From Polytrichum commune (Eukaryota > Streptophyta > Polytrichopsida > Polytrichales > Polytrichaceae), in NCBI GenBank assembly GCA_950295325.1, contig OX485803.1, positions 46,951,554 to 47,015,553 on the forward strand: a stretch of 64,000 nt of DNA. The letters are read 5' to 3'. The notes under the pieces were generated by a model. It had not been told where the DNA came from. It was given only the letters and a program-made list of their open reading frames with translations, and searched no databases. Both the position numbers and the translations under genes were made by a program. This document shows, piece by piece, positions 84 through 6,179 of this stretch (positions are counted from its first letter, which is position 1; each line of letters begins with the position of its first letter).

Positions 84-1137
84 ATGGAGGGTTCATCAAG
101 GCGCGATGTCTTGGACTTGGAGCTATGGAACATGGAAGAAAAAGAAGCAGACATACGAAGATTGGTAAAGTACCGATGTCCTTGTAGTATGTGTGCAGGG
201 GGAAAGGTATTGTCTAGAGCAACCATACGGAAACATCTTCGTCGATACAAGCGAGATCCCACATTCACGCAATCCATATTGGTAAGAGTTATATTTGCAT
301 TTATTGAATTATGTTGTTTTGGAATCGGGGCACTTTAGTTTTACTACAACTAGTGATGTAAGAACGATTCCACTCGTAATACATGTTTGTTATTACTACA
401 AGTAGTGATGTAATATCACTTCCATTCATAATACAAGTCTCGTATTACTACACGTAGTGATGTCGTAACGCTTATATTCGTAATACAAGTCTGGTATTAC
501 TCCACGTAGTGATGTAATAACGAATCCGTTCGTGTAGGCACAAAGAAGACCTTTTGTTGAAGAAGCAGCTAAGGCGGCTATGGAAGAGTTTTTTAAAGAG
601 ATGACAACCACAACACCTGTACCTGAAAAGAAAATTCACACTAATGAGGAGCTGAAATTGATGAATTGGAGGGTTGACCAATTCGATGGGCAGTGGCGTA
701 ATGGTCCCATACCAAAGTTTAGTACTTTCTTTTTTCATGATAGAAATTGGGAAGTGAAAATTTCTAAGTTTTCGTTCATGGGCTGGGGTTTATTTGCGAT
801 GGATCCCGCAAAAGCAGGCGATATCCTTTTACCATTTGTGGGGCCTCAGTACACCACATCAGAGTACCGGAAAATGAAAACTCTTGTACCCCGCTTCAAA
901 AGCTATGTCTTTAAAGTTGAGGATGACATTTACATCGACGGGAGAGTAGAGAGGGGCAATGTTGTAGGTTTTATTAACAGCTCCATAGGGCGAGAGGAAA
1001 TCGCCAATGTAGTGTGGGAGTATAGTTTGCTTCCAAAGCCTTGGAACAATGACGAATGGGGTTTTGTTATGAGCATTGCATCAAGGGATATAGAAGTAGG
1101 AGAAGAGTTGTTTGCATATTACCCCGTGAATTAAATT
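84..1137 (+). CDS. Transposon-borne protein: transposase-associated zinc motif joined to SET domain
   Basis: Two exons, 84-281 and 538-1137, join in phase 0 across a GT-AG intron (donor TTG|GTAAGAG, acceptor GTGTAG|GCA) to give about 265 codons with no stop. Residues about 25-58 contain CPCxxC followed by a basic HLRRY segment, resembling the cysteine part of the plant transposase-associated domain usually found at the start of TNP2 proteins. Residues about 140-262 read as a SET domain: GWGLFA (148-153), then YIDGRVERGNVVGFINSS (198-215), then RDIEVGEELFAYY (249-261). The family's NHSC motif is replaced by NSSI, so catalytic competence is uncertain, and there are no pre-SET or post-SET cysteines. 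An AG acceptor at 75-76 precedes the ATG with an open frame, so a further upstream exon is possible. SET domains normally methylate protein lysines; a role in transposon chromatin or regulation would be inference. Confidence 0.78.
341..548 (+). repeat. 52-bp tandem repeat (4 units) inside the SET-ORF intron
   Basis: The core TTACTACACGTAGTGATGTA or a close variant begins at 341, 393, 445 and 497, exactly 52 bases apart each time. Each core holds a CACGTAGTG-like near-palindrome. The intervening sequence (TAATACAAGTCTCGTATTA type) is also self-complementary. The array fills most of the intron between 282 and 537, and its last unit runs into the splice acceptor. Similar sequence (CACTACGTCAAGTAA and its reverse) recurs in other introns of the same transposon. 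It may be a protein-binding array or a product of replication slippage; the function is not known. Confidence 0.9.
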
Positions 1138-1756: not shown

Positions 1757-4700
1757 GAGGTCAACAATGACATCTACAATGCTAATCGTGGCACATGTAA
1801 TGCGACACAAGAAGGGGGCTACATGACGGTAGAAGCAAACAATGATACGGGAAGAGATGTAGATGGAGACATATTACCGGAAACAAATACAGAAACAATG
1901 CAAGATAGCAGGGAGGGAGTGGAGGTAGTTCGGATGGTGAACGAGTGTTTCAAGAGGTATGATGGACTGCCCGCACACGCAAACATCACATCACACAATG
2001 AGGGCATTGAGGAAGAAGACGAAGGAAGACAAGAAGACGAGGACGAGATGGCCAACATGGAAGTACCTTTACTTGATGAGAGCAATGAAGGAAATGATGA
2101 TAGTATGGAGGATTTATTGAAAGAAGCGAGAACTCCGCTCTTCAAGGATAACCCCACCAACCGCTTGCAAGCAATCCTAATGCTCCTCAATGTATGCAAC
2201 ATTTTTGGAGTACCAAATGCATGTGTGGACGAGTTGTTGAAGTTGCTTAAACATGATCTACTTCCCAAAGAGAACACTTGCCCTCCTTCACATTACGAGG
2301 CCAAGAAATTGGTGAGGAAGTTAGGTTTAAGCTACAACACTATTCATGCGTGCAAGAATGGCCATTGTTTGTTTAGGAATGAACTGAAGGACGCGAAAGA
2401 GTGTCCCCAATGCAAAGAATCGCGGTATATTCCCGGTAGTGATAGCATTCCAGTGAAAGTGTTGCGACATTTTCCTCTTATACCTCGGTTGCTCCGAATG
2501 TACCGTTGCAAACGTTTGGCCGAGCTTATGACGTGGCATGTGGAGGGAAAAAGCAATGACAACAAAGTGAGATCGGTAGTGGATTCAAAGGCATGGAAAC
2601 ACGTGGACGCAAGGTGGCCGGACTTTGCGAAGGAGCCAAGAAACCTACGTTTGGCACTAGTTTTGGATGGTGTCAATCCATTTTCTAACCAATCTTTAAG
2701 TCATTCAACATGGCCAATGGTATTGTTAAACTACAATTTACCACCATGGCTAGTTACGAAACGGTTTTTTGTGATGTTAACCCTAATCATTCCCGGAAAA
2801 GAAAGTGTGAAAGAGGAGAATATCCATGTGTATTTAGCACCGCTCATAGAGGAGCTTCAAAGGTTGTGGAAAGGGGTGATGACAACAGATGGATCTGTTT
2901 TGGAGAAGGCGAGTTCAAGTGAGGGGAGTATTTATTCCACAAACCCAAATTTCAACCTTCGTGCGATTCTTATGTGGAGCATACATGACTTTCCGGCATA
3001 TGGGTTGCTTGCCGGACAAGTAACGAAGGGGTATAGGGGTTGTCCCCCATGTGGGCCACATGTGTCAACGAGGAGGTCCAAGTCGTTGGGGAAGAATGTT
3101 TACCTCGGTCATCGTCGTTACTTGGCAATGCACCATCCGTATAGACGATTAAAAAATAGTTTTGATGGAAAGGAGGATCACCGAGGTCCCCCGCGGGTAA
3201 TGTTTGCACATGATCATTTGCGGTTTGCAAAACAAAGAGAAGATTGGTTGGCAAGCTCGACCGAAAACAAAGAAGGAGACAAACTGGATCCAATCCACGA
3301 GCATGGAGTGAAGAGAAAGAATGCACTCTTTGCATTACCATATTGGAAGGTACACACTAGCGACTTTTGTTTTACTGTGGGAAGTAATGCTTGTCTATTA
3401 GAAGTAAACACACATTACTATTAGAGGTAATGCATAATGACTGCAGGAAGTAAGGGTTCACTTATAAATGCATTTTCATTAATAATCCAATACTTATTCA
3501 AGTAATGGTATAGTCATATCGGACAACCATTGTTTGAACACTTTGCAACAGTTTATTATATGGCATTTGACAGACATTGTACTTACCCAAATTTTGTGTG
3601 CACCAACAGGGCCTTCTTATACGCAATACGTTGGATGTAATGCACTGCGAGAAGAACATAACAGAAAGTCTTATGAAAACCATATTTGGGGAGAAGGATA
3701 CACTCACAGTTCACATGGATTTACAGGAAGGCAACATACGGCCGTATTTGTGGCCCATACCGGGGAGAAAACCAGGAAGCCTCACTTTACCACAAGCCCC
3801 ATATGTGCTCACAAAGAACGAGAAGGAGGTATTTGTGGATGTTGTGCGGCAATTGAAAACTCCAACCCATTATGTGGGCTAATTGCGGAAAAGAGTGAAC
3901 GTGGATGGGACATTGAAAGGATTGAAATCCCACGATTACCATGTCCTTATGCAACAGATATTGCTCCTTTGTGTACGCACAATCATGAGAAAAGAGGTGC
4001 GTATATGTATAATAAGATTAAGCCGCATATTCAAACGGATATGCGCTAAAACCATCAATCCGTTGGAAATGAATGACTTGAGAGAGGATACGGCCATCAC
4101 CTTGTGCATGCTTGAAAAAGAGTTTCCACCGGCATTTTTTGATGTCATAACGCACCTTGTGGTGCACTTGATTGAGGAATTGGAAATTTGTGGGCCTATA
4201 CATGTCCGTTGGATGTATCCTATGGAAAGGTATTTGAAGACATTGAAGGGTTTTGTTCGCAATCGCAATAGACCCGAAGCTAATATGGCCGAAGGATATG
4301 CCATAGATGAGGCGCTTGGCTTTTGCACGGAGTACATGACGTCATATTCCATTACAAGTCGCAGGGTATGGGACGACAAAGAAGATCCTACAATGAACGA
4401 CGAAATATTGGAAGGTGTTGGGCGACCAAGGATACCTACACCCAAGATACGCGACTGGATCCATGAATTTGTGGTGAATAATGTGGTCCCCTTGGAGTCG
4501 TGGAGAGAGTAAGTTACTTCATGATCAATGTTCCTGGCCGTGACATTATATTCCATGCACAATGATATGTTAGTAGCATGCACATTATAATATCACTAGT
4601 CTTACTAGGCAATAACTATATATAGTAAGCATCTGTGACTACCAAGAGTAAACAAATATGAAAATGACATATATTTATTACTTGACATCGTGATATCTAC

Positions 4701-5661
4701 TTTACTATGTAAAGTAATATTAACAAAACCTTTGGAAATTGAAAGACAACACAATATTGTGTTTTTTTGCAGGCGACACACCGCAAGTATGACACAGCGC
4801 AAATTGGATCGTGGAGAATATCGAAGGAAGAAACGAAATGGCAGGATTGTCTATCTCGAAAATCTCCAAGATGAGCCCTTTCACAATTAGTTCAAGTCCG
4901 AGGTTTCACGTGCAAAAGCGGCGGGAGAGGAAATTGATGAAGATATATTGGTCTTATCTCTTCCACCCTCTAGCCAAGCAACATCTTACCGCTCCATGTA
5001 TGCTTTTGGAAACCATATCCGTGTGCGAAGTGCAGAGGGGACATTGACAACATGCGACTGTGGCGTACACGCCACCTTCTCCCAAAATTGTCGATCAAGT
5101 GTACGTGCTAAGAATATGAAGGCGGCGAACTTGGAGTATGTGGGATGGGTGGAGAAAATATTGGCCGTAGACTATGGTCGATATGAATTGGTTGTGTTAT
5201 ATTGTAATTGGGTGATGGCAAATATGGTTGGGCACAATGCCACCATGAAGCGAGATGAGTATGGGTTTAGCCTAGTGAATTTTGATAGGTTGGTACCATT
5301 ATCAGCCGAATCTTTCACATTTCCACTCCATGTTGAACAAGTTTTCTTTGCAGATGATTTGAACAATCATGGGTGGAAGGTGGTTTTGCGGAAAGAGCCA
5401 AGGGGAGCAAGAGTTGTTTCCAACAAAGACTATATGCCGGACATAGGTTGCCTATCTCTAGGCAACGTTGAAGAACATTGTGGTTTGGTGCCCGCATCTT
5501 TAGAGAATGATGCAACACCAACTGACCCGATATTGGATGAGGTTGTGGTATTAAGCAGCAACGAAGTGGTTATAGCTTTGAACACAAATGAGCACGAATC
5601 TCCATTTGAAGACGAGGATGACTTTGGAATTGAAGAAGATAGAGATGTTCAAATAGATTAA
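1757..5661 (+). pseudogene. CACTA TNP2-type transposase, three exons, two premature stops
   Basis: Proposed exons are 1757-3349, 3610-4508 and 4773-5661, with introns bounded by AAG|GTACAC...CAACAG and AGA|GTAAGT...TTGCAG. The joined length is 1,127 codons including the stop. An acidic N-terminus (about residues 90-125) is followed by the TNP2 transposase core, recognisable from SKAWKHVDARWPDFA, NPFSNQSLSHSTWPMVLLNY, DFPAYGLLAGQVTKG, LGHRRYL, and LDVMHCEKN just after the first junction. DUF4218 follows, with GLKSHDYHVLMQQ and HVRWMYPMERYLKTLKGFVRN. The third exon carries DUF4216 (VDYGRYELVVLYCNWV; about 5150-5410) and an acidic tail. In-frame stops lie at 3880-3882 (TAA) and 4888-4890 (TAG, where a tryptophan codon would fit). 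The start is uncertain: 1739 also offers an in-frame ATG, but an acceptor-like CATACAG sits at 1756. Domain identity is secure and the copy is non-functional as written. Confidence 0.9.
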
Positions 5662-6044
5662 ATTAAATTATGTTGGATATGTAGAAATGCCTCACTTTAT
5701 ATAAATATGTACATTCCATTATGAATTATAAAAAGAGACGCCCATTTTTGGCGAGTATCCATTCTAAATCCTTGAAACATATGACAATCTGACCTGACAA
5801 TCTGTCCAAATCGACCACTTCACTACCCACAGTAATGCACGTCCCATTTGGCGTTCCCAAACACGTTCACACGTGCGTTCCCAACTGAATTGTTGTCCCA
5901 CATCAGCACCATGACTCCTCAAAGTAAACTCGGACATGGAATGAACACCAATGAATTTCGTGCATTCCCCCAATCACTCTTCATAGTAGTAAAAGACATG
6001 TAGTGAAGTGGGTGTTGGAATAAAAGACGTGTTTTGTAGTAGTG
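5662..6044 (+). repeat. CACTA 3' untranslated and subterminal region
   Basis: No coding sequence is visible. The region holds a short inverted repeat around 5741 (CGCCCATTTTTGGCG), repeated CACGT-containing motifs near 5840-5880, and the terminal AAAGAC-type repeats ending in TAGTAGTG at 6044. This matches the subterminal organisation of CACTA elements. Confidence 0.6.
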
Positions 6045-6179
6045 GGCATAGAACATGGTGCATTTCATACATTCCACTCAAACATTTGGGGTTAGCATGT
6101 CATGAACTTATTGACAAAGGTTTACTTATGCTAGGGCCCATGAACTCTACCTTAAAAGGATTGAGTGCATGGATGAAAT

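Follow-up and report, generated by a model that had tools for sequence, protein, structure and literature searches.

Does a plant transposon carry a SET-domain gene of its own, and how would such a gene relate to the transposase? The question arises from the window, the whole 64,000-nucleotide stretch of DNA analysed, in which the first-pass annotation had described a two-exon gene combining a transposase-associated zinc motif with a SET domain. Both exons stand as it described them, the first ending at a GT and the second preceded by TAG.

84–281, plus strand: exon 1, 66 codons, with a Transpos_assoc-like zinc motif (YxCPCxxC...TIRxHLR)
282–537, plus strand: intron 1, 256 bp, GTAAGA...TAG
538–1134, plus strand: SET exon (exon 2), 198 codons and a TAA stop

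Exon 1 contains YRCPCSMCAGGKVLSRATIRKHLRR and ends in phase 0 at a GTAAGA donor; the in-frame TAG immediately 5' of the SET exon is part of the acceptor. Profile searching bore out the SET assignment. The window SET exon matched Pfam SET (PF00856) at 43.8 bits (E 3.7e-11, cut-off 22.4) over positions 1–104 of the 105 in the profile, and all 18 aligned copies, taken out of the 62 fetched loci compared below, matched it at E 0.1 or better. Weak Ntox17 matches in 2 of the 18 copies (best E 0.0009) and one PRDM2_PR match were taken as noise. Exon 1 of the window scored 16.9 bits against Transpos_assoc, below the 27.7 cut-off, and its zinc motif resembles transposase N-termini that pass this cut-off in related elements; the presence of a transposase-associated motif and SET in one two-exon gene is upheld on that resemblance. 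A U-box reading of exon 1 (Pfam, 25.4 bits, cut-off 21.4) was rejected as spurious, since the N-termini of TNP2 ORFs align with this exon.

Downstream of the SET exon, on the same strand, lies a TNP2-type transposase, followed by the end of a transposon. The features of this element are as follows.

1757–3349, plus strand: TNP2 exon with Transposase_21; phase-0 acceptor CACATACAG/GAG (slash, junction) by inspection, 3' boundary by eye
3610–4508, plus strand: TNP2 exon with DUF4218; premature stop at 3880–3882, boundaries by eye
4773–5661, plus strand: last TNP2 exon with DUF4216; premature stop at 4888–4890, boundaries by eye
6021–6044, no strand assigned: 3' terminal inverted repeat, reading CACTACTACAAAACACGTCTTTTA on the minus strand
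6045–6047, no strand assigned: target site duplication GGC, with a second GGC directly before the 5' repeat
L004:2–2437 and C1 about 46932983–46933399, minus strand: third gene, on the opposite strand, by ORF similarity

Pfam matches in the window TNP2 were to Transposase_21 (E 7.3e-68), DUF4218 (E 5.6e-36) and DUF4216 (E 1.2e-07). The 5' terminal repeat is at C1:46929529, outside the window and 22 kb upstream of its start. The element is complete at 28,069 bp, with terminal repeats matching at 24 of 24 bases and GGC on both flanks; its 3' end was set where the match between two 98%-identical copies breaks off. Both the window element and two subfamily D copies have terminal inverted repeats beginning CACTA; in the two D copies these are exact over 24 bp. 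One D copy is complete at 15,498 bp, with the target site duplication TCC, and its sister copy has CTC. By its CACTA terminal repeats, 3-bp target site duplication and TNP2-type transposase, the window element is a CACTA (En/Spm) transposon. A PIF/Harbinger transposase was not matched, the scanned ORFs matching only Transposase_21, DUF4218 and DUF4216 among transposase families. The first-pass annotation was thus correct in placing the SET ORF inside the element and upstream of TNP2 in the same orientation, and in counting two stops in the neighbouring transposase. Those stops are absent from a close copy on C2, and therefore represent decay of the window copy.

Minus-strand ORFs occur in both complete elements, and one is similar between them (39.6% over 139 columns); no minus-strand ORF of the window and subfamily D elements had a Pfam match over cut-off. 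This third gene is possibly the counterpart of TNPA. The window element, which upstream of the window covers C1:46929529–46951553, measures 28 kb against 15.5 kb in subfamily D, and the 5' part of the three close copies shows large insertion/deletion differences.

The pairing of SET and TNP2 is repeated through the genome. This genome, of 408 Mb with seven large contigs, has only 28 NAC-domain exon matches, fitting about 14 genes, a number that suggests a non-flowering land plant. The SET exon had at least 150 scored matches (214 candidates), giving 137 loci once neighbours were merged, and the TNP2 search gave 150 scored matches among 643 candidates. At least 73 of the 137 SET loci have a scored TNP2 match 1.3–3.2 kb downstream on the same strand, against a chance expectation of 0.155 on average (maximum 2 in 200 position shuffles); other copies with SET beside TNP2, a check set beforehand, are therefore plentiful. 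The count is a lower bound, two loci (L018 and L021) being scored as unpaired yet holding TNP2 in their fetched DNA. No TNP2 among the 150 scored matches lay in any other arrangement within 6 kb of any of the 137 SET loci. Among the same TNP2 matches, 77 had no SET match upstream. A distant decayed group of loci (L062–L068) has SET sequences 28–40% identical, with an exon-1 match in 5 of 7, pointing to older waves of the same family. Of 15 pattern matches in viral contigs, none was a relative.

We compared the splicing signals around the SET exon in 62 loci, 57 of them further fetched and 5 being copies from longer stretches. In 53 of the 62 the match to exon 1 extends to the junction, and GT is kept there in 48 of these 53. 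The five in which it is not kept are L039, which has stops in its SET exon, and L063, L065, L066 and L067, all of decayed group F. A phase-0 AG was found by script in 50 of the 53; in L026, L050 and L067 the chosen AG was off the conserved place. Exons and introns diverged differently between subfamilies A and C: identity was 85% in exon 1, 82% in the SET exon and 78.5% in TNP2, versus 66% in intron 1 and 45% in intron 2, and the exons aligned free of gaps while the introns had many. Where the conserved acceptor was identified, intron 1 is 88–117 bp long in copies of subfamilies B to E. In the window copy it is expanded (256 bp, against 88 bp in subfamily B), and about four repeat units whose core resembles ACTACACGTAGTGATGT can be made out in it by eye.

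An ORF of at least 190 codons was present in the SET exon of 45 of the 62 fetched loci. Nei–Gojobori dN/dS was calculated from such ORFs only, a choice that lowers the ratio, and the paired SET and TNP2 comparison used 22 of the 24 loci holding both exons, L023 and L030 being dropped for broken SET ORFs. SET dN/dS across copies, a comparison proposed by the first-pass annotation, came to 0.17–0.34 between subfamilies A, B and C and between E1 and E1b. Ratios for SET and TNP2 were 0.17 and 0.18 for A–C (8 pairs), 0.18 and 0.17 for B–C (20 pairs), 0.34 and 0.29 for A–B (10 pairs), and 0.25 and 0.16 for E1–E1b (3 pairs); deeper comparisons between subfamilies were mostly saturated at synonymous sites. 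The SET exon is under purifying selection between subfamilies, about as strong as that on the transposase.

Constraint was weaker among recent copies, as expected for decaying copies. Within subfamilies the SET and TNP2 ratios were 0.20 and 0.29 in C, 0.31 and 0.27 in D, 0.47 and 0.38 in B, and 0.78 and 0.61 in E1. With all 45 SET ORFs the values were 0.21 in C, 0.40 in D, 0.56 in B and 0.81 in E1, with one pair up to 1.3, and the SET differences among three subfamily A copies were all replacements (dS 0). Premature stops interrupt the SET exon in 2 of the 24 loci holding both (L023 and L030), and the first 0.9–1.1 kb of TNP2 also in 2 of 24 (L012 and L028); the two stops of the window lie further 3'. 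An open SET ORF next to an interrupted transposase had been read as a possible sign of separate selection. That idea is unsupported, because SET and TNP2 dN/dS run in parallel and, within the stretches compared, SET and TNP2 have stops about equally seldom.

Where exon 1 belongs is indicated by elements lacking SET. From the 77 TNP2 loci lacking a SET match we took 14 and compared the window exon 1 with them by tblastn. It matched 10 of the 14, with no match in L073, L074, L075 and L081. Four SET-less loci (L070, L071, L072 and L076) have an exon 1 that is 59–63% identical to that of the window and has a phase-0 GT; in the first three, at least one phase-0 AG precedes TNP2, with no SET between. 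In L078, L080 and L082, which are among the loci over the Transpos_assoc cut-off, the zinc motif and TNP2 form one ORF. Because SET-less relatives have a similar exon 1 along with TNP2, or both in one ORF, exon 1 is most simply read as the transposase's own N-terminal Transpos_assoc exon, with the SET exon lying in the intron behind it. The free-standing zinc-SET fusion first envisaged gives way to this reading, since L070–L072, L078, L080 and L082 make exon 1 look like the first exon of the transposase.

Mapped onto a 38-row TNP2 tree, the SET label requires four changes, against a mean of 11.7 when shuffled. Two of them come from L074 and L075, both placed inside SET-bearing groups; in L075 the final 24 SET residues survive, and the 2.9 kb fetched for L074 showed no SET. 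The remaining changes arise where SET-bearing L031 groups with SET-less L070–L073 and L076 (100/98), so that a single gain of SET needs a later loss. A second gain, or exchange between elements, would also account for this placement. We prefer one gain with later losses as the probable history, because the SET proteins of L031 and the window are 46% identical and have the intron position in common. A recent host donor of SET was sought and rejected: with the element SET profile, none of 17 host SET stretches, picked by eye among genome SET matches outside the element list, exceeded 19.6 bits, although they are exon pieces and score low partly for that reason too. These stretches are no closer than the solved chains named below.

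The junction of exon 1 to TNP2 is predicted from genomic splice signals and rests on inspection. Several phase-0 AGs are available per TNP2 exon, such AGs being common, and the acceptor was picked among them by inspection, on the strength of alignment across copies and of a stop found at the acceptor in two loci. A phase-0 AG occurs at a matching place within each of subfamilies A, B, C, D and E1; in L031 no TNP2 acceptor could be placed. The two loci with the stop, L019 and L020, have an in-frame TAG exactly at the acceptor, and therefore readthrough from upstream cannot make TNP2 protein there. The alternative is that TNP2 is translated from an internal Met rather than spliced from exon 1.

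We think it a shade likelier to be right than wrong that the locus is a CACTA gene with two products, zinc-SET and TNP2, in which the first intron of the transposase contains the SET exon and the SET product acts on the element's own chromatin. One promoter and one zinc-motif exon would serve two alternative products. Joined to the TNP2 exons, exon 1 would give the transposase, as the splice signals suggest; joined to the SET exon, with its own stop, it would give a 264-residue zinc-SET protein. The exon 1 domain, presumably common to both products, would bring SET to the element's own DNA, and there the SET domain would methylate nearby histones, or the transposase complex, keeping the element expressible or accessible. 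That both junctions are used, that exon 1 binds DNA, that the SET domain methylates and that the effect runs against silencing are all inferred. Splicing in these two ways would resemble the arrangement in maize Spm, and by analogy zinc-SET may act as an accessory protein, directed to the element through the N-terminus of the transposase. The most specific version, a self-targeted and cis-preferential writer in which a shared DNA-binding exon is spliced to either transposase or SET and an activating histone mark is written, we put forward as a tentative possibility.

Palindrome-like repeats in the window are candidates for the sites such a protein might bind.

14–30, 445–461, 497–513, 1202–1218, 1408–1424 and 1609–1625, no strand assigned: palindrome-like repeats near TTACTTGACGTAGTGAA, up to 3 mismatches, candidate binding sites

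Allowing up to 3 mismatches, the window holds 8 such repeats against 0.11 expected, and the window element holds 11, mostly around exon 1 and the introns, against 0 in 59 kb outside it; the motif was picked by eye from the element itself, which makes these counts post hoc. No copy of the palindrome lies in the stretch surrounding a subfamily D element. Subfamily D has a different one, AGTCATATGACT, with 8 copies of the 12-mer, counted without a control. We treat the palindromic repeats as candidate sites and no more.

Methylation by the SET product presupposes a catalytic domain, and the residues bear on this in both directions. G82, G84, N141, I146 and N147 are invariant in all 45 SET ORFs, and Y195 is present in 44, with one gap; we take the GxG to be the cofactor motif, the Asn to be that of the NHS motif, and Tyr 195 to be the catalytic Tyr. 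The His of NHS is replaced, by Ser in 44 of the 45 ORFs and by Asn in one. In the 18 aligned copies the ORFs end 3–8 residues after Tyr195 (three in the window), with no Cys and no post-SET region. The NHS His and post-SET cysteines are features of the SUV39, SET1 and SET2 classes, and both are absent from the ORFs just described. Methyltransferase activity is uncertain because of the His-to-Ser replacement and the missing post-SET region. Both features favour a non-catalytic SET, in which catalysis has been lost or weakened and the domain serves as a binding or decoy module, competing with host SET enzymes or tethering a host complex; PR-like SET variants with altered NHS motifs exist as a precedent. 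Yet 44–45 of the 45 ORFs retain GxG, Asn 147, Asn 157 and the last Tyr, across subfamilies down to 42% identity with the window protein, a conservation needless for a pure binding module. We judge this alternative unlikely, if still a serious one.

By profile, the closest solved chains were ASH1L (E 7e-06), SET1, MLL and EZH2, with NSD and SETD2 also found; these are mostly histone enzymes, and the matches are too weak for the SET class to be assigned from them. AlphaFold2 models of the SET protein had a pLDDT of 44 with the 18 copies and 49 with the 37 long ORFs that remained of 45 once duplicates were removed. Foldseek with the latter model gave nothing at E 0.001 or better, and the best 50 of 62 matches contained no SET chain, a result that we treat as uninformative. 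The SET fold rests on sequence profiles because the pLDDT was low and Foldseek returned no SET fold.

The same relatives bear, weakly, on a reading in which the SET protein methylates not histones but the transposase or the host transposition machinery, and so tunes the frequency of transposition. Being mostly histone enzymes, they argue against it. In its favour, the exon 1 presumed common to both could place the SET protein and the transposase in the same complex, and the constraints on SET and TNP2 are parallel. We consider this reading improbable.

Splicing of the SET exon into the transposase, giving a single zinc-SET-TNP2 protein, is compatible with the order and phase of the exons, and a GT shortly precedes the SET stop in some subfamilies. 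The SET exon nevertheless ends in a stop in all 7 loci compared, and subfamily D and L031 lack the GT at the corresponding position. We rejected the fusion protein on this failure of the donor to be conserved, and regard it as very improbable. Finally, CACTA elements often carry gene fragments, but the capture of a host SET fragment merely amplified with the transposon is scarcely credible in the face of purifying selection similar to that on TNP2, dN/dS not near 1 between subfamilies, long open frames in 45 of 62 loci, mostly conserved splice sites and the lack of a recent donor among the 17 host SET stretches.

We return to the two-product gene acting on its own chromatin. Histone methylation is something that transposons usually undergo. 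The large plant transposon family described here appears to keep a histone-methyltransferase-type domain of its own across several diverged subfamilies, wired into the transposase gene in such a way that transposase and SET could share one targeting domain. A SET exon that looks as if selection has kept it intact points to a transposon equipped with a chromatin-modifying protein of its own. If the SET domain is active, the element would be a compact natural chromatin editor and would let one ask directly whether histone marks help transposons evade silencing. It would also illustrate how a transposon gains a function through an exon inserted into a transposase intron.

SET-bearing DNA transposons are already known. 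A SET domain within a CACTA element, inside the transposase gene, appears new: it was not found in the literature searched, which lay mostly outside subscription papers and Repbase Reports. To our knowledge, neither TNPA of maize nor VANC of the VANDAL elements has a SET domain.

HarbingerS and SET-bearing MuDR transposons are known from Phytophthora (Kojima and Jurka, Repbase Reports 2014, cited in a passage of PMC12730594). Like these, the element described here is a DNA transposon encoding a SET histone-methyltransferase-type protein besides its transposase; unlike them, as that passage presents them, it has a CACTA transposase, a plant host, and a SET exon inside the transposase gene after its first exon. 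The fungal transposons that bear TET/JBP include EnSpm and Plavaka (a passage of PMC12730594). Some of them are likewise CACTA-type and took up a chromatin- or DNA-modifying enzyme, but in their case, by that account, the enzyme is a dioxygenase acting on DNA, in fungi. VANC of the VANDAL elements is a sequence-specific anti-silencing protein of a plant transposon (passages of PMC10398659 and PMC12730594), and VANDAL belongs to the MuDR superfamily (PMC12730594) rather than to CACTA.

Maize En/Spm is a CACTA transposon, as the window element is. Passages of PMC1636069 and PMC10398659 describe tnpA and tnpD as products of one transcription unit by alternative splicing, and TNPA as reactivating the methylated Spm promoter. 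By those passages the Spm unit yields a TNP2-type and an accessory protein; the corresponding arrangement is here predicted from genomic splice signals. Unlike in maize, a separate minus-strand gene may here take the place of TNPA.
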